Program-made: the position numbers and the translations under genes
Shown: piece by piece, positions 4,801 through 63,222 of the stretch
Position numbering within the stretch: the first letter of the stretch is position 1
Layout: every line of letters begins with the position of its first letter
Virus record (IMG/VR): IMGVR_UViG_3300042433_000146
Coordinates: 1-64,000 of that record
Strand: one strand, 5' to 3'
Origin: a virus
Length of the DNA stretch: 64,000 nucleotides
The notes under the pieces: model-generated
What the model was told of the DNA's origin: nothing
The model's input: the letters and a program-made list of their open reading frames with translations, nothing else
Databases searched by the model: none

Positions 4801-5634
4801 ATGTCTATCGTACACGCCATCAAATCCCTGCTAGCTCTTTCAGTTGGAGACGCTTTCGGGGAAAACGAGTTACGGATCGTCCTGCCACGCGACGGCGGTC
4901 CACAGCGATATTTCTGGACCGACGATACCGCAATGGCAATCTCTATCGTCCGGTGTCTGGCGGAAGACGGTCGTATCCTTCAGGACAAACTAGCCGGGTA
5001 CTTTGCCGAACGGTACCATGCCGATCCTCAGCGCGGATATGGTCGCGGTACGGCCAGTATGTTGGATGCCATCTATCAGACGGGTGAATGGCGGCAACTC
5101 TCAGCGAATTGGTGGGGCGAAGGTATTGGGTCATTCGGCAACGGCGCGGCTATGCGCGTCGCTCCCCTTGGCGCATTCTATACCGACATCGACACCGTGG
5201 TGCAAGAGGCCCGCTACAGTGCGCAAGTGACCCACGACCACCCGGAAGCCATCGCGGGCGCTATCGGCGTCGCTGTGGCCGCATTGCTGGCAACGCATAG
5301 CACATGGTCATGGGACGCAATCATCGGCGCAATCCCTCCGTCCGTCGTCCGGGATCGTACCGTCCACGTGAGTCAAATGGGAAGGGAATCTCATCTTACA
5401 GTCGCGGGCGCGGTCGGTAAAGGATCTGAAGTGTCGGCAATGGACACCGTACCGTACTGTCTATGGGCGGCGCATCGGGCGTTGGTTGTTAATGACTTTG
5501 CGGAATCCATGCAACAGATCACCAGCGTGGGCGGTGATACCGACACCAATTGCGCCATCGTCGCGGGCATTATCGGCAATCGTGTCACCATCCCACAAGA
5601 TTGGATCGACCGGACGGAGAAGTTCAATGTTTGA
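4801..5634 (+). CDS. ADP-ribosylglycohydrolase family protein (DraG-like), 277 aa
   Basis: Full-length match to the ADP-ribosylglycohydrolase fold. Visible are GDAFGEN (about residues 16-22), the metal-binding WTDDTAMA (39-46), NGAAMRVAPLG, THDHPEAIAGA and the C-terminal metal site GGDTDTNCAIVAG (from about 244). These Asp/Thr residues bind two Mg ions that hold ADP-ribose. The enzyme removes ADP-ribose from proteins or nucleic acid. Start at 4801 gives the usual N-terminal helix before GDAFG. It stands alone on the plus strand and overlaps the next gene by 8 bp. Likely counteracts host or phage ADP-ribosylation; the substrate is not determinable. Confidence 0.93.
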   Translation: MSIVHAIKSLLALSVGDAFGENELRIVLPRDGGPQRYFWTDDTAMAISIVRCLAEDGRILQDKLAGYFAERYHADPQRGYGRGTASMLDAIYQTGEWRQLSANWWGEGIGSFGNGAAMRVAPLGAFYTDIDTVVQEARYSAQVTHDHPEAIAGAIGVAVAALLATHSTWSWDAIIGAIPPSVVRDRTVHVSQMGRESHLTVAGAVGKGSEVSAMDTVPYCLWAAHRALVVNDFAESMQQITSVGGDTDTNCAIVAGIIGNRVTIPQDWIDRTEKFNV

Positions 5635-17090: not shown

Positions 17091-17165
17091 TGGGGTGATC
17101 GGTGAGAATTGAACTCACATGGACGGATTCACAGTCCGCCGCCTAAACCATTCGGCCACGACCAC
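17091..17165 (-). tRNA. tRNA-His (GTG)
   Basis: Acceptor GTGGTCG/CGATCAC, anticodon loop CTGTGAA, T-loop TTCAATT, C discriminator and encoded CCA. The C73 discriminator fits histidine, but the base at -1 is T rather than the usual G. First tRNA at the left end of the cluster. Confidence 0.9.
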
Positions 17166-17195
17166 AATCGATGCCCCGGAAGAGTGGGGCGAACT

Positions 17196-17525
17196 TTATG
17201 AGTGCGCATAATGCTCTATGGCATGACAATTGGCACAAAGAATATCACACTTGGAAATTTCTTTTTCAATTCGTTTGATCGACCAGCCTTCGTTCACCGC
17301 TTTTGCGATACATATATCTTTTTCGATTGGATTTCGGTGATGAAAGTGTAGTGCCGCCGGATGATCGAATCCACATCGTTCACATTGAAGCGTCTGCTTG
17401 TGTTCTTTGAACCATTGATATATCGCTTGTTTGCGTTGATTTTTCTGGTCGATGACTTGTTGTCTATTTCTTTGATACCATCGTCGTGAAGCCGCGCGCG
17501 TATCTTCGATGTTGCGATATGCCAT
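17196..17525 (-). CDS. HNH endonuclease, 109 aa
   Basis: Basic helical N-terminus (RAASRRWYQRNRQQVIDQKN), then CERCGFDHPAALHFHHRNP and CDILCANCHAIEHYAH: the two CxxC pairs and the H-N-H catalytic core of small HNH nucleases. Located inside the tRNA cluster, a typical site for homing endonucleases in T4-like phages. A late-type TAAGTA box lies 6 nt before the ATG. Confidence 0.9.
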   Translation of the reverse strand: MAYRNIEDTRAASRRWYQRNRQQVIDQKNQRKQAIYQWFKEHKQTLQCERCGFDHPAALHFHHRNPIEKDICIAKAVNEGWSIKRIEKEISKCDILCANCHAIEHYAHS

Positions 17526-17537
17526 CAAAAATACTTA
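17526..17537 (-). promoter_or_regulatory. Late promoter variant TAAGTA
   Basis: On the minus strand TAAGTA (17532-17537) lies 6 nt before the ATG of the HNH gene. Confidence 0.5.
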
Positions 17538-17556
17538 GACGACACCGACACAAAAT

Positions 17557-17630
17557 TGGCTCCGGGTCAGGGATTCGAACCCCGATAGGAGGCTTCAAAG
17601 ACCTCCGTCCTACCTTTAGACGAACCCGGA
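17557..17630 (-). tRNA. tRNA-Gln (TTG), class I
   Basis: Acceptor TCCGGGT/ACCCGGA, anticodon loop CTTTGAA, short variable loop, T-arm GGGG-TTCGAAT, discriminator G, encoded CCA. Confidence 0.92.
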
Positions 17631-17636
17631 ATGAAT

Positions 17637-17719
17637 GGTCAGGTACGGGAGTCGAACCCGCATTGTCGCCTTGGATTGTGCGCGCCGTTGCGACTTCTTA
17701 CCGATTAGAAGAACCCGAC
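17637..17719 (-). tRNA. Atypical tRNA-like gene with expanded anticodon loop
   Basis: Acceptor GTCGGGT/ACCTGAC, D-stem TTCT/AGAA and T-arm GCGGG-TTCGACT-CCCGT are normal. The anticodon stem GTCGC/GCGAC encloses 20 nt instead of 7, so no anticodon can be assigned, and no CCA is encoded. It is either a tRNA with an insertion, a pseudo-tRNA or a distinct small RNA. Confidence 0.6.
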
Positions 17720-17727
17720 CACAAACT

Positions 17728-17815
17728 TGGCTGGCGCGGGTGGAATCGAACCACCGATGTCACGTGGACACTAGTTTCAGAGACTAGCGGCTTTACCAAC
17801 GTCGCCTACACGCCA
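17728..17815 (-). tRNA. Class II tRNA with anticodon CTG
   Basis: Acceptor TGGCGTG/CGCGCCA, anticodon arm CTAGT-CTCTGAA-ACTAG, a long variable arm (TGTC/GACA stem), T-arm GGTGG-TTCGATT-CCACC, G discriminator and encoded CCA. The anticodon CTG reads the Gln codon CAG, but the long variable arm with G73 is a serine-type body. Confidence 0.8.
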
Positions 17816-17820
17816 ATATA

Positions 17821-18033
17821 CTAACCTTCGAACTCAGCGGGCCGTCCTTGGACGGCCCACTTTTCATGCTTGGCCGCATGCTGGTGGGTTTGCCCGAACG
17901 CGATGAGCGAACCGGGGCATAGATCACAGCCGACATACGGGAAATGTGGTGGGGCATCCCATCCAGCACGGAAGGCTTCTTCCGCGTCGCTGAATTGTTT
18001 CTCGAAGCCACAGCACTGACATTTCAGAGTCAT
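17821..18033 (-). CDS. Small zinc-ribbon protein, 70 aa
   Basis: CQCCGFEKQFSDAEEAFRAG, then PHFPYVGCDLCPG: a C-x-C-C and C-x2-C pair with the DAEEAF/AGWDAPP signature of a small phage family of unknown function. Located between tRNA genes. Confidence 0.8.
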   Translation of the reverse strand: MTLKCQCCGFEKQFSDAEEAFRAGWDAPPHFPYVGCDLCPGSLIAFGQTHQHAAKHEKWAVQGRPAEFEG

Positions 18034-18053
18034 AGTACCACTCTATCACTGAT

Positions 18054-18127
18054 TGGCTCCCGATCATGGATTCGAACCACGATTAAGTGAGTCAGAGTCA
18101 CCCGTCCTACCGTTAGACGAATCGGGA
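18054..18127 (-). tRNA. tRNA-Gln (CTG), class I
   Basis: Acceptor TCCCGAT/ATCGGGA, anticodon loop CTCTGAC, short variable loop, discriminator G, encoded CCA. Confidence 0.9.
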
Positions 18128-18131
18128 ATGT

Positions 18132-18221
18132 TGGCTGCGGCGGAAGGAATCGAACCTTCGATGCTCACATGGAGCGTCTGTTTCAAAGACAGGTGGCTTT
18201 ACCAGCGTCGCCTACACCGCA
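18132..18221 (-). tRNA. Class II tRNA with anticodon TTG
   Basis: Acceptor TGCGGTG/CGCCGCA, anticodon loop CTTTGAA, long variable arm (GCTC/GAGC stem), T-arm GAAGG-TTCGATT-CCTTC, G discriminator, encoded CCA. The body closely resembles the class II tRNA at 17728-17815. The first anticodon-stem pair is a C-A mismatch. Confidence 0.78.
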
Positions 18222-18228
18222 ATGGAGT

Positions 18229-18305
18229 TGGTAGCGTAGACGGGATTCGAACCCGCGATTTCCACTTTGAGAGAGTGGTGACTTAAGCCTCTTGTCAACT
18301 ACGCC
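18229..18305 (-). tRNA. tRNA-Glu (CTC)
   Basis: Acceptor GGCGTAG/CTACGCT, anticodon arm CCACT-CTCTCAA-AGTGG, T-arm GCGGG-TTCGAAT-CCCGT, encoded CCA. Its 5' end overlaps the 3' end of the gene at 18299 by 7 bp. Confidence 0.9.
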
Positions 18306-18685
18306 ATGTTGTAACTTGTATATGCGTCTTCGGGTTTGCGTGGAGCACAGAACCGACACAACTGAACTTCGAGCGGCACCACGATGAGAAGCATACTGGC
18401 ATTCCGTCCGCATTTGGTACAGTGCATCGGGCCGGAATTGCTAGTCTTGCGTAACTTGCTATGATCCTTCATCACCATGTCGTGTTTGGTCGGCATCATG
18501 ATGTTGTCTTCATCGACCAGTAGAGCCGTCTGTTGATTCTGATGGAACCGTTGTCGGGACCGGCGGAACTTCTTTTCGCCGCGTTTCTTTTTGGCGGCAC
18601 CATGTTTTCCCCGGCAATGGTCACCGGGCGGGCAAGTGTAATCTCGTTCATCGACGAAGTTTCGGTTGTGATTTGTCTTCGGCAT
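18299..18685 (-). CDS. Basic zinc-ribbon protein, 128 aa
   Basis: N-terminal part has CPPGDHC and a run of basic residues (KKKRGEKKFRRSRQRFHQ). Near the C-terminus HCTKCGRNA and, about 20 residues on, LCRFC form a four-Cys zinc ribbon. The stop codon lies within the tRNA-Glu gene. Likely nucleic-acid binding; function unknown. Confidence 0.7.
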   Translation of the reverse strand: MPKTNHNRNFVDERDYTCPPGDHCRGKHGAAKKKRGEKKFRRSRQRFHQNQQTALLVDEDNIMMPTKHDMVMKDHSKLRKTSNSGPMHCTKCGRNASMLLIVVPLEVQLCRFCAPRKPEDAYTSYNMA

Positions 18686-18690
18686 GATGT

Positions 18691-18767
18691 TGGTAGGCCC
18701 GGCTGGATTTGAACCAACGTTTGTCGCTAATCAGGCGACCGTTCTGATTCCGCTGAACTACAGGCCC
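18691..18767 (-). tRNA. tRNA-Ile (GAT)
   Basis: Acceptor GGGCCTG/CGGGCCT, anticodon arm GTCGC-CTGATTA-GCGAC, T-loop TTCAAAT, encoded CCA. Confidence 0.88.
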
Positions 18768-18788
18768 ATGAGAAACTAAATTTGACTA

Positions 18789-18941
18789 ATGTTTATCACT
18801 GCTTTCTTCTTCTACTTGATCGTTGCGATTGTTGCTCGAATGATCCGTTCTTATGCGAATCACCAGTGGTACATCTTTCAGATCGATGACCAGTATGAGA
18901 AGTATTTTGGTCCCGAAGTCGGTAGTCGAAACCGCATCTGA
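18789..18941 (+). CDS. Possible small membrane protein, 50 aa
   Basis: A plus-strand frame begins MFITAFFFYLIVAIVARMIR, a good single membrane span with a positively charged flank, and ends inside the opposite-strand tRNA at 18908. No ribosome site is visible. Real expression is uncertain. Confidence 0.4.
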   Translation: MFITAFFFYLIVAIVARMIRSYANHQWYIFQIDDQYEKYFGPEVGSRNRI

Positions 18942-18983
18942 CGGTCCACAGCCGTCCGCTTTTGCCGCTTAAGCTACATCGGG
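18908..18983 (-). tRNA. tRNA with anticodon GTG (His-type, degenerate)
   Basis: Anticodon arm GACGG-CTGTGGA-CCGTC. Acceptor CCCGATG/CTTCGGG has one T-T mismatch and the T-stem one mismatch; discriminator A, encoded CCA. A second GTG tRNA besides 17091; the A discriminator argues against normal histidine charging. Confidence 0.7.
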
Positions 18984-18989
18984 AGTTTT

Positions 18990-19067
18990 TGGTGTTCCTG
19001 ACCGGATTCGAACCGGCGTTCTCACCTTGAAAGGGTGGCGTCCTAGACCAGACTAGACGACAGGAAC
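18990..19067 (-). tRNA. tRNA-Glu (TTC)
   Basis: Acceptor GTTCCTG/CAGGAAC, anticodon loop CTTTCAA, T-loop TTCGAAT, discriminator A, encoded CCA. Confidence 0.9.
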
Positions 19068-19079
19068 ATTGAGGGGTGG

Positions 19080-19190
19080 TTAGTCCGCCCGGTTGCGCTT
19101 CCACAGTTTGTATGCCGTGACCGCGCCGATTACTGCGAAGTCACCGAAAGCCAGCGTAGCCCCGGCGACGTACAGCAAAGTCTCTTCCAT
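19080..19190 (-). CDS. Small membrane protein, 36 aa
   Basis: MEETLLYVAGATLAFGDFAV continues into VIGAVTAYKLWKRNRAD: one membrane span followed by a positive tail. GGGGAG lies 7 nt before the ATG at 19190. Too short for family assignment. Confidence 0.6.
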   Translation of the reverse strand: MEETLLYVAGATLAFGDFAVIGAVTAYKLWKRNRAD

Positions 19191-19214
19191 TGTTCGTTCT
19201 CCCCGGATTGAATT

Positions 19215-19292
19215 TGGTAGCGTGTATGGGATTCGAACCCATGATCTCCGATTTGAAGGACCGGCGGCTTAATCCATCTTGCCTAACACGCC
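19215..19292 (-). tRNA. tRNA with anticodon TTC (Glu-type), C at position 33
   Basis: Acceptor GGCGTGT/ACACGCT, anticodon arm CCGGT-CCTTCAA-ATCGG, T-arm ATGGG-TTCGAAT-CCCAT, encoded CCA. The base before the anticodon is C instead of the near-universal T, so decoding may be impaired. Confidence 0.78.
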
Positions 19293-19412
19293 ATGACGAT
19301 CACTGGCCGGTGGGGTATCCGCCGTTTGTCCTACCCGGACACGTGCTACCCATCCTCCGTTTGCTTGTCTTGCCAGCGAACTACACTGTTGAGCGCTACA
19401 ACAGCGATCTTG

Positions 19413-19613
19413 TTACCACGACCGAAGTGTCACATCTTTGCCACAGTTGGCACAGACGATCCATTCGCGTCCATCGGGTCCACCACTGATATCCTTACCG
19501 GAGTACTTCATGATGTCATTCTGGACGAATTCCAGTGTGGCACCACAAGAGCGACAAACCGCTCTTTGCCGAACTTCGACAGGTGGATCGATGCTGATGA
19601 TTTTGACGGCCAT
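19413..19613 (-). CDS. Small zinc-ribbon protein, 66 aa
   Basis: MAVKIISIDPPVEVRQRAVC, then CRSCGATLEF and VCANCGKDVTL: a four-Cys zinc ribbon in a 66-residue protein. Start at 19613 keeps it clear of the tRNA at 19621. Function unknown. Confidence 0.72.
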   Translation of the reverse strand: MAVKIISIDPPVEVRQRAVCRSCGATLEFVQNDIMKYSGKDISGGPDGREWIVCANCGKDVTLRSW

Positions 19614-19620
19614 GTGATTT

Positions 19621-19698
19621 TGGTACCAGCGGGGTGAATCGAACACCCGACCTCTTCGTTATGAGCGAAGCGCTCTGAACCTGCTGAGCTACGCTGGC
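19621..19698 (-). tRNA. tRNA-Met (CAT)
   Basis: Acceptor GCCAGCG/CGCTGGT, anticodon arm CTTCG-CTCATAA-CGAAG, T-loop TTCGATT, encoded CCA. Elongator type; an Ile2 (modified CAT) identity cannot be excluded. Confidence 0.9.
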
Positions 19699-19786
19699 AT
19701 GGGCGCGGGCCGAACCTTTCAGTAGAACCGTGCATGGTTTTTAACGGAGCCGACCGCCTCATGCACGCGGACACCGCGATAAAGAA

Positions 19787-20224
19787 TCATTTGGTGGTCG
19801 TGGATGGACTTGAACCATCTGCCTCAGTCTTATCAGGACTGCGCTCTGCCAGTTGAGCTACACGACCATATTCGGTTTCCAGCATATCTATCACTTCGTC
19901 GCCATACTGTCTGAAATGTTCAATGGCTTTGCGGTGCATTTCTTCCGCTTCGAGCCATGTGGAGCATCGGGTTTGATAACTTTCCCAATCGCGTTCCCAT
20001 TTCTCACTATAGACTTCGTGTTCCATGTCGATCCACGCCATCGTTTCGAACAGGATGGGCGGACCATCACCGAACTGGTGATTGATACCAAGGAAAACCG
20101 TTGAGATTGTTACCGGGCCAACTTTTGTGAGAGCTACCCGGCGGGACGAATCATCTTCAAACATCATTGCCAATTCCAAAGGGCTTTCCACCGGGACGGG
20201 TGTCTGTCCTATGAGAATGTACAT
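19787..20224 (-). CDS. Conserved phage protein whose 3' end runs through a tRNA gene, 145 aa
   Basis: Start at 20224 (MYILIGQTPVPVESPLELAM). The core VGPVTISTVFLGINHQFGDG, then PPILFETM, matches a widespread small phage family of unknown function (TVFLGLDH.FG...LFETM), followed by the usual TW..AE..H helix. The frame then continues through the whole tRNA-Ile at 19792-19867 on the same strand, so the last 20-odd residues are tRNA sequence translated. Either the stop was lost, or the tRNA was inserted into the gene's end. Confidence 0.8.
   Translation of the reverse strand: MYILIGQTPVPVESPLELAMMFEDDSSRRVALTKVGPVTISTVFLGINHQFGDGPPILFETMAWIDMEHEVYSEKWERDWESYQTRCSTWLEAEEMHRKAIEHFRQYGDEVIDMLETEYGRVAQLAERSPDKTEADGSSPSTTTK
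19792..19867 (-). tRNA. tRNA-Ile (GAT)
   Basis: Acceptor GGTCGTG/CACGACC, anticodon arm CAGTC-CTGATAA-GACTG, T-arm GATGG-TTCAAGT-CCATC, encoded CCA. Lies wholly within the 3' end of an open frame on the same strand. Confidence 0.92.
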
Positions 20225-20264
20225 GTGATGCCGCGATGATCGCATATCAAGAGCCTATCATGTT

Positions 20265-20356
20265 TGGTGGATGGGGTAGGATTTGAACCTACAGTGTTTC
20301 CCGCAAGGGGTGGCGGTTTTACAGACCGCTGCCTTCACCATTCGGCGCACCCATCC
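20265..20356 (-). tRNA. tRNA-Tyr (GTA), class II
   Basis: Acceptor GGATGGG/CCCATCC, anticodon arm GCGGT-CTGTAAA-ACCGC, long variable arm, T-loop TTCAAAT, discriminator A, encoded CCA. Typical bacterial class II tyrosine tRNA. Confidence 0.93.
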
Positions 20357-20377
20357 ATGTTGGTTAGTCGATGAGTT

Positions 20378-20467
20378 TGGTGGGCGTGGCTGGATTCGAA
20401 CCAGCAAGGCTCCGAAGGAGCACCGGGGTTACAGCCCGGCACCGGGACCAGTTCCGATATCACGCCC
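20378..20467 (-). tRNA. Second tRNA-Tyr (GTA), class II
   Basis: Acceptor GGGCGTG/CACGCCC, anticodon arm CCGGG-CTGTAAC-CCCGG, long variable arm with CTCC/GGAG, T-loop TTCGAAT, discriminator A, encoded CCA. The sequence differs clearly from the neighbouring Tyr tRNA, so it is not a recent copy. Confidence 0.88.
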
Positions 20468-22540: not shown

Positions 22541-23086
22541 ATGCGATACGATCATCCATCGGCCATCTATCCGGGGTCTTTTGATCCACCGACGAAGGCG
22601 CACATCGATTTGCTGTTCACTGGTATGCGGATGTTTCCACACGTCACGGTGATCGTGGCGGCGAACGCGGAGAAGAAGCCGTGGTTTACGGCGGCGGAAC
22701 GGGTCCAGATGTTTTGGGATCTTCTGAAGACCGATGAGGGACAATACCCGGAAGGGGTGAAGGTAACCAGCACGGAGAAAGTCTACGTGCCGATGATGGC
22801 GGAAGCGAAGATGTCGTCCTTCGTGATTCGTGGGTTGCGCACGTCGATGGACTTCGATTATGAGACGCGGTTGATGCGTCTGTATCAGCGGATGAATCCG
22901 CGCCTTCAGCCGGTGTACATTCCGACATTCCCGACCAACGACATGGACTTGATCTCTTCGAGCATGGTGAAGTCGTATGTGGGGCCGGACGGGTGGGAAG
23001 AAGTGACGAAGCCGTTCCTGACGCCGAAGATCCACGCGAAATTCGTGGAGCGGGCGACACAACGGTTGTTGCAACCGCAAGGCTAG
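22541..23086 (+). CDS. coaD: Phosphopantetheine adenylyltransferase, 181 aa
   Basis: Nucleotidyltransferase of the CoaD type: AIYPGSFDPPTKAHIDLLFT carries the TxxH nucleotide-binding motif (the usual TxGH Gly is Ala here), VIRGLRTSMDFDYETRLM matches the CoaD signature, and DLISSSMVKSYV is the ISSSxxK motif. It makes dephospho-CoA from ATP and phosphopantetheine. Slightly longer than bacterial CoaD (about 160). A phage-borne CoaD is unusual; it may supply CoA or related cofactors during infection. It has its own strong promoter with no leader. Ends with a 4-bp convergent overlap. Confidence 0.9.
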   Translation: MRYDHPSAIYPGSFDPPTKAHIDLLFTGMRMFPHVTVIVAANAEKKPWFTAAERVQMFWDLLKTDEGQYPEGVKVTSTEKVYVPMMAEAKMSSFVIRGLRTSMDFDYETRLMRLYQRMNPRLQPVYIPTFPTNDMDLISSSMVKSYVGPDGWEEVTKPFLTPKIHAKFVERATQRLLQPQG

Positions 23087-23445: not shown

Positions 23446-24679
23446 ACTGGTCGATGAGGAACTGGACGAATTCGTTTTTTTCAATGGGTAGCCATCCTTG
23501 CTTCACATAAGAGTCAATCGTTTTCCGACTCACATGAATGAGGTTCGAAATCACGCTTCGGGAGAGTACTTCAGGAAGCGCCCGGTGCATCGTCTGGAAG
23601 TATTCCTTCCGTTTCCGGGTGCTCAATTCTAACAGGCTTTGAACGAAACCGTCCAGTGCTTTGGTTTGGCCTTTGGTGCTTGGGATGACGATCTTCTTGG
23701 TGAAGACGATGCCATGTTTGTCGCGGATGGTCTTGACGAATTTCTCTGTGCGGGATTGGCCTTTGGCTTTGAGAATGCGCCGGACATCAGCGATGCATCC
23801 TTGATTGTCTTTCAGGAGTTGAACGATTTCGGCTTCATCGTCGCGGAACCGATAATTGGTTCCGTTGCCGACGTTGAGTTCCTTCATGCGCCGTTCGACG
23901 GCCCACACCGGCCAGTCGATGATGCTACCGACCTTGGTGAATTCTCCGGGATAGGTGCGCATGACCTTATCGATTTCCGGGGTGGCGTGATACTTGGGAG
24001 AGCCGACCGGACGACCGTGCCCGATTTCTTTCCGTCGTTTCCAGATGGCTTGCCGGGGCCATCCGATCTGTTGGGCGATGTCTTTGGTCGGAGTCTCAGA
24101 AATGATGAGGGCATCGATTTCAGGTGTTGACACGTATTTTCTCTGACGTTCCTGTTTTGCTTGGGGCGGTTTGGGTGGATTCTTCGGACGACCTTTCCGG
24201 CCTATGCGGGCGATCAGATCCTCTTCAGTGAAGACGCCCAAGCTCAACCCGTATCGCATGACCCGTTCGGCGGACCAGTCCAGTTCCTTGGCGGCGCGGG
24301 ACGTATGCAATCCGTGCTTGTGTAGGATGGCAATTTCCTCTTCGGTGCATTTCAACTTTTCCGGGCGGCGGAACCGGTCATACTTGGGTGGTTCTGTCTT
24401 GGTTGATTCTGGCCGGAACGTCAACAGTACCGGGACCAACCAAGGACATCGAACGAAAAATTCCATCCACGACAAAAACAGTTTGCGGCTGGCACAAAAT
24501 GTGGCGAATAAAAAGGCAGTGCGGCTATTTTTCGTTCTTTCTATTTCGAGGGCAAGACGACGATTGGCCTTTTCTTCCTTCTTCTGTTGCTTTAACAGCC
24601 GGGCGGCTTCTTTCTCCGCTTCTCTGGCGAAACGCCGCCGCATGGAAGCGGCGTGCCGTTCGAGTCGTTTGTTCCACAT
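23384..24679 (-). CDS. Multi-helix-turn-helix DNA-binding protein, 431 aa
   Basis: A basic coiled-coil start (RRRFAREAEKEAARLLKQQK), then several homeodomain-like repeats recognisable as ALxxHG-T-RAAKELDWS..RVMRYG, PTKDIAQQIGWPRQAIWKRR, and SRSVISNLIHVSRKTIDSYV near the C-terminus. RKYVSTPEIDALI and KYHATPEIDKVMRTY show an internal repeat. Probably a site-specific DNA-binding protein, perhaps a transcription regulator. Related in style to the gene at 26878. AAGGA before the ATG; divergent from the ligase gene at 24734. Confidence 0.75.
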   Translation of the reverse strand: MWNKRLERHAASMRRRFAREAEKEAARLLKQQKKEEKANRRLALEIERTKNSRTAFLFATFCASRKLFLSWMEFFVRCPWLVPVLLTFRPESTKTEPPKYDRFRRPEKLKCTEEEIAILHKHGLHTSRAAKELDWSAERVMRYGLSLGVFTEEDLIARIGRKGRPKNPPKPPQAKQERQRKYVSTPEIDALIISETPTKDIAQQIGWPRQAIWKRRKEIGHGRPVGSPKYHATPEIDKVMRTYPGEFTKVGSIIDWPVWAVERRMKELNVGNGTNYRFRDDEAEIVQLLKDNQGCIADVRRILKAKGQSRTEKFVKTIRDKHGIVFTKKIVIPSTKGQTKALDGFVQSLLELSTRKRKEYFQTMHRALPEVLSRSVISNLIHVSRKTIDSYVKQGWLPIEKNEFVQFLIDQCDYMSAMQGNEHQETATANG

Positions 24680-24720
24680 TCCTTGAACATTCTACCACAA
24701 CGACTCGTTTCTCAATGTGA

Positions 24721-24738
24721 TACAATGACTTGTATGTC
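24721..24738 (+). promoter_or_regulatory. -10 box and operator over the start codon
   Basis: TACAAT at 24721-24726 precedes the ATG at 24734 by 7 nt. The palindrome variant GACTTGTATGTC (24727-24738) covers the start codon rather than the -35 region. Confidence 0.6.
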
Positions 24739-25768
24739 TGATCTGCTCAGTCGTGATGAATTTCGAGAAGGCGTATTCCGCCGGGACGGTCATAAGTGTG
24801 TGATCTGTCAGGCGGCGGCACAAGACGCCCATCACATCCTTGAACGACGATTGTTCCACGACGGCGGCTACTACATGGATAACGGTGCGTCATTGTGTGG
24901 TGATTGTCACATGAAAGCGGAACAGACTGTTCTGTCGTGTGATGACATTCGGCGGGCCGCTGGTATCACGCGGGTGGTGCTACCGGAGCACATGTACCGT
25001 GACGCGATCTATGACAAATGGGGAAACATCGTCCAGCCCAACGGAACACGAATTCCGGGCGAACTGATGGAAGACGAATCTGTGCGGAAGGTGATGATGC
25101 CTTTGATCGCGGCGGGCATATTCGTCAAATATGTCAAGTACCCACGGACATATCATGTGCCGTGGAGTGAAGGGATCACTGATGATGAACGCGCCTTTGA
25201 CGATCCCGACCGGCTCTTCTGTGGGAAAGAAATCGTCATCACGGAGAAGATGGACGGAGAGAACACGACGCTGTACAGCGACTATCTTCACGCACGAAGT
25301 ATCGATAGCGGTTCGCATCCGTCGCGGGGTTGGGTCAAGAATCTCCACGCGCAAATTGCTCATCATATCCCGACCGGATGGCGGATTTGTGGAGAGAATC
25401 TGTATGCCCGGCACACCTTGCCGTATGATGATCTCCCAAGTTTCTTTCTGGCATTTTCGATTTGGGATGATCGAAATGTTTGTCTCTCTTGGGACGCCAC
25501 AGTCGAGTATGCATCAATCTTAGACCTTCACATGGTCCCGGTGATGTACCGTGGGCCGTATGATGGCAAGCTGGTGCGGGAGATTCACACACGACTCGAT
25601 TTGAAGCGACAGGAAGGGTATGTGATGCGGGTGGCTGATGAGTTTCCCTATCGGGCCTTCCGGCAATCCGTGGGGAAGTTTGTGCGCCGGGCACACGTCG
25701 GCACCGCACACAACTGGATGATGCAAGCCGTGGTTCCGAATGCGATGAAGCGGTCAGTTACTCTCTGA
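24734..25768 (+). CDS. HNH domain - RNA ligase fusion, 344 aa
   Basis: Residues 15-65 form an HNH/zinc domain: CVICQAAAQDAHHILERRLF, then SLCGDCHMKAEQ. Residues from about 165 form a nucleotidyltransferase: VITEKMDGENTT with the adenylated Lys at 172, GWRICGENLYARHTLPYDDL (motif III), EGYVMR near 294 (motif IV), and KFVRRAHV (motif V). This is the RNA-ligase fold of the Rnl2-like class. The start at 24734 is leaderless, from the TACAAT box. T4-like phages use RNA ligases to repair tRNAs cut by host anticodon nucleases; the attached HNH is unusual. Ends with an 11-bp convergent overlap. Confidence 0.85.
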   Translation: MSDLLSRDEFREGVFRRDGHKCVICQAAAQDAHHILERRLFHDGGYYMDNGASLCGDCHMKAEQTVLSCDDIRRAAGITRVVLPEHMYRDAIYDKWGNIVQPNGTRIPGELMEDESVRKVMMPLIAAGIFVKYVKYPRTYHVPWSEGITDDERAFDDPDRLFCGKEIVITEKMDGENTTLYSDYLHARSIDSGSHPSRGWVKNLHAQIAHHIPTGWRICGENLYARHTLPYDDLPSFFLAFSIWDDRNVCLSWDATVEYASILDLHMVPVMYRGPYDGKLVREIHTRLDLKRQEGYVMRVADEFPYRAFRQSVGKFVRRAHVGTAHNWMMQAVVPNAMKRSVTL

Positions 25769-62628: not shown

Positions 62629-63222
62629 ATGCAGAACACTCTAATCCCAATGGTCGTAGAACAGTCTCCGCGCGGTGAACGCTCCTACGACATCTATTCC
62701 CGTCTTCTCAAAGAGCACATCATTTTCCTTGGCACCGCCATCGACGACGACGTTGCCAATCTGGTCGTCGCACAGCTTCTTTTCCTTGCGGCGGAAGACC
62801 CGGACAAGGACATCAGCATGTACATCAATTCGCCGGGCGGATCGATCACGGCGGGCCTTGCTATTCTCGATACGATGAATCTGGTCAAGCCCGACATCGT
62901 GACCTATTGCGTCGGTCAGGCCGCGTCGATGGGTGCTGTGTTGCTGGCGAACGGTGCCAAAGGGAAACGCTTTGCCTTGCCGCACGCACGCATCCTGATT
63001 CACCAGCCGTTGATGCGCGGACTCAGCGGACAGGCCAGCGACATCGACATTCACGCGAAAGAAATCTTGCGCATGCGCGAAATTCTCAACGGAATCTTAG
63101 CGACCAAGACCGGACAACCGCTCGAAAAGATCAGCGCGGACGTGGATCGCGACTACATCTTGGAAGCGGATGCCGCTGTCAAGTATGGCCTTGTGGACAA
63201 GGTGATCGAGAAACAGCCGTAA
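62629..63222 (+). CDS. clpP: ClpP-family serine protease, 197 aa
   Basis: Full Clp[61 protein letters not shown] with the nucleophile Ser100, [20 protein letters not shown] with His125, and [20 protein letters not shown] with the third triad Asp near 175. Length and order match bacterial ClpP. In phages such enzymes may serve in capsid maturation or reshape host proteolysis with host ClpX. Leaderless from TACAAT at 62615. Terminator follows. Confidence 0.95.

Follow-up and report, generated by a model that had tools for sequence, protein, structure and literature searches.

The window analysed here, the whole stretch of 64,000 nucleotides, is part of a virus record of 184,632 bases in which 44 tRNA matches were found, 42 of them above the family cut-off. 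Matches to PHROGs families for single-strand DNA-binding, tail tube, baseplate hub, baseplate wedge and head-closure proteins elsewhere in the window lead us to infer that the source is a large tailed phage. A tRNA array on the minus strand, by position one of at least three in the record, holds one class I and one class II glutamine tRNA for each of the anticodons CUG and UUG. The features discussed below are the following.

17091–20467, minus strand: tRNA array holding the class I and class II Gln tRNAs (14 ARAGORN calls)
17557–17630, minus strand: class I tRNA-Gln(UUG); 4-nt variable loop, Glu-like D-arm TCGTCTA, U1-A72, C2-G71, G73
17728–17815, minus strand: predicted class II tRNA-Gln(CUG), anticodon at 17780–17778; U1-A72, G2-C71, G3-C70, G73, CCA encoded
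17756–17770, minus strand: variable arm of the tRNA at 17728; 15 nt, stem TGTC/GACA, 5-nt loop
18054–18127, minus strand: class I tRNA-Gln(CUG); 4-nt variable loop, Glu-like D-arm TCGTCTA, U1-A72, C2-G71, G73
18132–18221, minus strand: predicted class II tRNA-Gln(UUG), anticodon at 18186–18184; U1-A72, G2-C71, G73, CCA encoded
18160–18176, minus strand: variable arm of the tRNA at 18132 (TTG register); 17 nt, stem GCTC/GAGC, 5-nt loop

Several other features of the window were noted. An Rfam tRNA match at 13538–13624 (minus strand, 36 bits) is absent from the ARAGORN list. The open reading frame at 24653–25768 (plus strand) has a Pfam RNA_ligase domain (PF09414, residues 192–343) and an N-terminal part that by eye resembles an HNH nuclease; the T4 RNA ligase 1 family (PF09511) gave no match in the record, in a search whose control was also without any match. 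The frame at 4801–5634 (plus strand) encodes an ADP-ribosylglycohydrolase (PF03747) and that at 22541–23086 (plus strand) a relative of phosphopantetheine adenylyltransferase. A near relative of the phage (G006; 224,490 bases) has a 100% identical baseplate hub protein, as found among the best 80 of 572 matches. It seems to have two of the arrays in common with the phage, as judged from equal tRNA scores, and has an extra array with Pro, Leu and Ile(UAU) tRNAs. From the position of the hub gene, this relative apparently starts about 26.7 kb into the window and so would leave out the array studied here.

The two long-arm tRNAs, referred to below as 17728 and 18132, were found by ARAGORN at exactly 17728–17815 and 18132–18221. 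Both also exceed the Rfam tRNA gathering score of 29 bits (47.8 bits, E = 6.4e-8, for 17731–17815; 45.9 bits, E = 2.1e-7, for 18135–18221), so that chance is an unlikely source. Each has seven acceptor pairs (TGGCGTG/CGCGCCA in 17728 and TGCGGTG/CGCCGCA in 18132), five T-stem pairs and a five-position anticodon stem, and the canonical anticodon loops, CTCTGAA in 17728, read CAG and CAA, respectively. The original prediction had described long variable arms, a G discriminator and adjoining class I partners with the same anticodons (18054, CTG; 17557, TTG), all of which are borne out by variable regions of 15 and 17 nt, by G73 in both tRNAs and by the 4-nt variable loops of the partners. Because their variable regions do not have the 4–5 nt of class I tRNA-Gln, 17728 and 18132 are filed here as tRNA-Gln variants and not as typical members.

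The anticodon of 18132 depends on the register in which its stem is read. ARAGORN itself labels 18132–18221 as Phe(GAA), and this register offers an anticodon stem of five pairs, compared with four in the TTG register, where there is a C-A mismatch at 27-43. However, the GAA register needs a linker of 3 nt, not 1, between the D-stem and the anticodon stem, and its folding energy of −23.9 kcal/mol is 3.5 kcal/mol poorer than the −27.4 kcal/mol of the TTG register, which is also the unconstrained minimum-energy fold. The TTG register gives the loop CTTTGAA, of the same form as in the sister tRNA 17728, together with the 17-nt variable region. A tRNA-Phe is further contradicted by the acceptor stem, which is classified as Gln (see below), and by the combination U1-A72/G73, which occurs in 0/28 and 0/17 phage Phe tRNAs in two samples. 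We therefore consider a phenylalanine tRNA hardly credible, and 18132 is taken as Gln(UUG), with the anticodon originally predicted for it. The label serves as a warning that ARAGORN can displace the anticodon in class II tRNAs of this kind.

To place the two tRNAs by amino-acid identity, they were compared with phage tRNAs from two samples. The control set comprised 1,114 tRNAs from at least 120 viral loci (L068–L187) fetched with a class I Gln(UUG) pattern. The second, independent sample came from loci fetched with a class I Asn pattern (L405 onward) and provided 832 distinct tRNAs among the matches listed, 832 of 842 being kept after the removal of tRNAs present in earlier sets. Calls of unknown isotype were left out of the classifier, arm-geometry, U34, independent-sample and two-architecture counts, and identical tRNAs were counted once in the classifier, arm-geometry, U34, independent-sample, nearest-relative and G2-C71 counts. 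In the control counts of U1-A72/G73 for Asn and Gln, tRNAs with fewer than six acceptor pairs were left out and identical tRNAs were not collapsed; nor were they collapsed in the total and the class counts of the control set.

A long variable arm with G73 is the usual description of a tRNA-Ser, and both tRNAs have it. The long arm and the G discriminator had been read as marks of serine. G73 alone is no such mark, as it is also carried by Gln and Asn tRNAs of the control set. Among the matches listed there, U1-A72 with G73 is present in 47/47 Asn tRNAs and in 137/147 Gln tRNAs, the latter figure being inflated by the selection of most of these Gln tRNAs with A72-G73 in the pattern. It is present in 28 of the 57 Gln tRNAs that match no selection pattern (two samples pooled), made up of 22/31 for Gln(CTG), which was not chosen by the class I pattern, and 6/26 for Gln(TTG) outside the pattern, where the exclusion itself lowers the figure. 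U1-A72/G73 is a common but not universal mark in phage Gln tRNAs. It was found in none of the distinct phage tRNA-Ser (0/65 and 0/60 in the two samples, 0/125 together), and at least 45 of 54 control-set Ser tRNAs have G1-C72 where 17728 and 18132 have U1-A72 instead. 'Long arm plus G73' must not be taken as serine.

A naive Bayes classifier learned 15 acceptor positions from phage tRNAs typical of their isotype (those of an atypical class being left out); it recovered 95/128 Gln, 57/65 Ser and 619/994 tRNAs of all isotypes when these were held out. It assigns both tRNAs to Gln, 17728 by 19.1 bits over Ser and 18132 by 19.9 bits. Without the acceptor the isotype is ambiguous, with Gln minus Ser at −6.1 bits for 17728 and −8.7 bits for 18132; the class II bodies outside the acceptor stem are not Gln-like. 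In global alignments the closest tRNA to each window copy is the other, followed by the L039 class II Gln; for both copies the top three also include the class II Asn of L404. The ten nearest tRNAs include no Ser for either copy, and those of 17728 also include Pro, Leu and Lys tRNAs. An origin from tRNA-Leu, prompted by the D-arm TGGTGTAATTGGCAACACG in several phage class II Gln tRNAs, was dropped because the nearest tRNAs are mainly Gln and Asn and because this D-arm is also usual in some bacterial tRNA-Gln.

The geometry of the variable arm was compared with a single parser. The stem is rooted without an unpaired base before nt 48 in 54/70 phage Ser and 30/46 class II Leu tRNAs, and with two unpaired bases in 18/28 phage Tyr tRNAs. 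At this point 17728 has one unpaired base and 18132 has two, which is not the usual Ser rooting. In the class II Gln set (n = 23) there are five tRNAs with none, five with one, six with two, three with three and four with no stem.

These comparisons bear on the original proposal that the two tRNAs put serine, or another residue, at CAR codons as a missense or recoding system. Host SerRS, which is blind to the anticodon, would charge them through the long arm and G73, so that Ser would appear at some CAR codons. The passages on serine identity in PMC9976931 and PMC7609411 name these two features as the main SerRS determinants, G2-C71 is compatible with Ser (128/133 Ser tRNAs have it), and the body features favour Ser over Gln by the 6.1 and 8.7 bits given above. 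Set against this are the 19–20 bits toward Gln in the acceptor stems, the absence of U1-A72/G73 from the phage Ser tRNAs sampled and arms rooted otherwise than in most Ser tRNAs. The codon use of the phage ClpP gene (62629–63222, plus strand), aligned with one bacterial homologue, is also contrary to it: six of the seven aligned CAR codons are opposite Gln and one is opposite Arg. In the eight columns with Ser in the homologue the phage has Ser four times, with TCN codons, and CAR not once; six of the 11 columns with Gln in the homologue are CAR and five hold other residues. CAR thus never falls at the sites where the homologue holds the proposed new residue. As the comparison is of one protein with one homologue, it counts against wholesale recoding and not against rare misreading. 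Acceptor identity, arm geometry and codon use all led us to reject serine recoding at CAR, and we regard recoding to serine as unlikely and serine missense through SerRS as quite improbable. PMC9976931 ascribes serine identity mainly to the variable arm, with contributions from G73 and, in E. coli, from determinants in the acceptor stem, so some serylation may occur, and a low level of Ser mischarging of 17728 and 18132 is possible. The alternative offered in the same prediction, a variant Gln set, is supported by the Gln anticodons, U1-A72 and G73, the acceptor-based Gln call and the Gln and Asn nearest relatives.

Class II tRNA-Gln was also sought in other genomes. Two pattern scans of viral contigs, in which A72-G73 was required by construction, gave 57 loci, of which 29 were left out as not folding by the set thresholds or as lying at a contig edge. 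The remaining 28 viral contigs hold 22 distinct forms that fold, with G2 in 21/22, and for 14/22 the stretch fetched showed no class I tRNA-Gln of matching anticodon. In the independent sample, among the matches listed, class II accounts for 30/32 Tyr and 42/65 Leu tRNAs; Ser is always class II in both samples (66/66 and 60/60 among the matches listed). The remaining isotypes together contribute 18/675, including a Thr of L514 that is probably a false call. Gln, which belongs to this group, accounts for 1/28, the single case having G1-C72 and A73, unlike the window tRNAs. Class II tRNA-Gln is real and recurrent, but uncommon.

Two observations on other isotypes were made in the same samples. 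Class I forms make up 52/100 predicted phage Leu tRNAs in the control set and 23/65 in the independent sample, among the matches listed. Variable arms of 21–24 nt are frequent in phage tRNA-Ile(UAU), many of them with the motif AGATTA or one like it (L402:5149–5240, L080, L120, L411, L429 and others), and 7/12 and 6/12 distinct UAU tRNAs in the two samples are class II. Odd class II forms were enriched among U34 anticodons in the first control set (23/305 versus 10/414, p = 0.002), as if from anticodon nucleases. This idea was dropped as the independent set gave a stratified chi-square of 0.74, Ile(UAU) excepted.

On the bacterial side, class II tRNA-Gln was called in eight MAG contigs among the 119 loci listed; in three of the eight (L241, L252 and L282) the variable region has 10 nt and forms no clear stem. 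Three of the five MAG genomes searched (G001, G004 and G005) also have a class I-spaced Gln(UUG) match, and the other two (G002 and G003, for which completeness is not stated) have the class II Gln match alone. These matches do not establish that any bacterium depends on class II tRNA-Gln. Class II tRNA-Gln with the D-arm TCGCCAAG..., an ordinary bacterial Gln D-arm, are found on gut bacterial MAG contigs, possibly within mobile elements (L224:1911–1999, L276:4114–4203 and L293:1259–1348); the neighbours in L293, a reverse-transcriptase-like open reading frame among them, have by eye the look of a mobile element.

Outside the window, the same phage has further predicted class II tRNAs of unusual isotype.

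L010:1125–1214: class II tRNA-Asn(GUU); U1-A72/G73
L010:542–629: class II tRNA-Arg(ACG); U73
L010:5812–5897: class II tRNA-Arg(CCG); U73

The phage also has a class I Asn(GUU) (L010:3897–3972), and ARAGORN called no class I CGN-reading Arg in its three arrays. Unexpected class II forms are five of the 40 non-Tyr ARAGORN calls in these arrays (two Gln, one Asn and two Arg); this count takes 18132 as Gln and leaves out a malformed His call whose variable region has 11 nt. This phage is rich in class II tRNAs of unusual isotype. Swollen anticodon arms were seen by eye in three further tRNA-like genes of the phage (17637–17720, minus strand; L010:2180–2302; L009:677–775). One has a loop of 20 nt, one is 123 nt long with about 50 nt inserted, and one is class II-like with a 13-nt loop; inserts, introns or decay may account for these forms.

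The malformed look of these genes would fit a reading in which 17728 and 18132, transcribed or not, take no part in translation. They would then be decoys that sequester a tRNA nuclease or a modification enzyme of the host, or drifting duplicates made redundant by the class I copies with the same anticodons, and the C-A mismatch at 27-43 in 18132 would suit decay. Yet both keep seven acceptor and five T-stem pairs, a canonical anticodon loop and the CCA, the class recurs as 22 distinct forms with intact stems, and for most of these forms (the 14 noted above) the stretch fetched shows no class I counterpart with the same anticodon. A decoy or a decaying copy therefore seems unlikely.

The reading that we prefer, and hold to be probable, is that 17728 and 18132 are genuine Gln-accepting elongator tRNAs on a class II fold. 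The host would glutaminylate both, through GlnRS or through GluRS and GatCAB, the latter using U1-A72. The charging enzymes would tolerate the long variable arm, and the two tRNAs would then decode CAR as Gln alongside the class I pair. According to PMC9976931, U1-A72 is a mark used by the amidotransferase and GluRS2, and one GluRS acts on tRNAs whose D-stem is lengthened and which lack nt 47. Searches of the record, possibly a fragment, found neither the GlnRS/GluRS type (PF00749) nor the SerRS type (PF00587), and we infer that charging of the phage's tRNAs rests on the host. The long arm would be a body variant of phage tRNAs; in this phage it is also predicted for Asn and Arg tRNAs, and elsewhere for Gln tRNAs on other phage contigs, most of them large. 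As to its purpose, a second Gln set for another charging route and escape from a nuclease are leads only.

The first of these leads comes from two architectures among the Gln tRNAs. In the window the class I copies combine a Glu-like D-arm (TCGTCTA) and a 4-nt loop with C2-G71, and the class II copies have G2-C71. In other phages G2-C71 is present in 23/24 class II and 105/173 class I Gln tRNAs (p = 0.0004), with no clear difference for G3-C70 (15/24 versus 76/173, p = 0.13). Class I Gln tRNAs that share a locus with a class II Gln have G2-C71 in 3/15 cases, compared with 102/159 elsewhere (p = 0.0015), and a Glu-like D-arm in 8/15, compared with 43/159 (p = 0.04). Over all class I Gln tRNAs, however, the Glu-like D-arm is not associated with the absence of G2-C71 (p = 0.61), and both types occur in 7/30 loci that hold at least two Gln tRNAs, none of them class II. 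The pattern was noticed post hoc and its counts include related sequences; we treat it as a lead. From the preferences of GluRS, GluRS2 and the amidotransferase described in parts of PMC9976931, each set may fit a charging route of its own, class I with its TCGTYTA D-arm for GluRS and GatCAB and class II for GlnRS, such that Gln decoding would continue if the host changed or if a tRNA nuclease attacked one body type. The contrary results (p = 0.61 and 7/30) slightly lowered the already small probability that we gave to two routes, which we put forward as a tentative and rather doubtful idea. In a wider form of this idea, large phages may switch tRNA class as an adaptive move.

The portions of PMC11555353 and PMC10264068 that concern phage tRNAs describe evasion of tRNA-cutting defences through tRNA supply and anticodon-loop changes, and nothing on class II Gln was found in those portions. 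We recognised no description of a phage class II tRNA-Gln in searches of open-licence PMC full texts, and one may exist in print. Phages are predicted to have long-arm forms of Gln, Asn, Arg, Thr, Lys and Ile tRNAs, as well as Leu tRNAs that lack the arm, which suggests that the class of a phage tRNA can vary. These odd-class tRNAs would allow a test of which synthetases need or tolerate a long arm, and of whether phages escape tRNA-cutting defences by changes to the tRNA body, beyond those in the anticodon loop.

Judged by sequence and fold, 17728 and 18132 are probably a natural class II-fold variant of tRNA-Gln that is charged with glutamine. In bacteria a long variable arm is taken as belonging to Ser, Leu, Tyr and Sec tRNAs. 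With the class I tRNA-Gln of bacteria and phages the window tRNAs share YUG anticodons, U1-A72, G73 and CCA, but their variable regions are 15 and 17 nt with a stem of their own, not 4–5 nt, and their D-stem has three pairs. With class II tRNA-Ser they share the long variable arm, G73 and G2-C71; they differ in the Gln anticodon, in U1-A72 rather than the usual G1-C72 and in having one or two unpaired bases at the foot of the arm, where most Ser tRNAs have none. An engineered class II E. coli tRNA-Gln, reportedly charged by GlnRS, is said to have been described by Nissan, Oliphant and Perona in RNA in 1999. It likewise places Gln identity on a class II fold, although it was made in the laboratory, whereas the window tRNAs are natural. 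Rogers and Soll are said to have swapped identity from Ser to Gln. The class II tRNA-Asn of another phage record (L404:9867–9955, in G010) has the same TAGGCGACGYTGGTAAAGCC D-arm as the window class II Gln tRNAs, together with U1-A72, G73 and a long arm, and differs in its anticodon, GUU; the same record holds a CTA-anticodon tRNA (L404:4286–4362), labelled 'Pyl' by ARAGORN, that is possibly amber-reading. The allo-tRNAs and selC tRNA-Cys, as presented in the relevant part of PMC7609411, also carry the class II shape beyond its usual isotypes, but they do so with longer acceptor and anticodon stems, whereas the window tRNAs keep seven acceptor pairs, five T pairs and a five-position anticodon stem.
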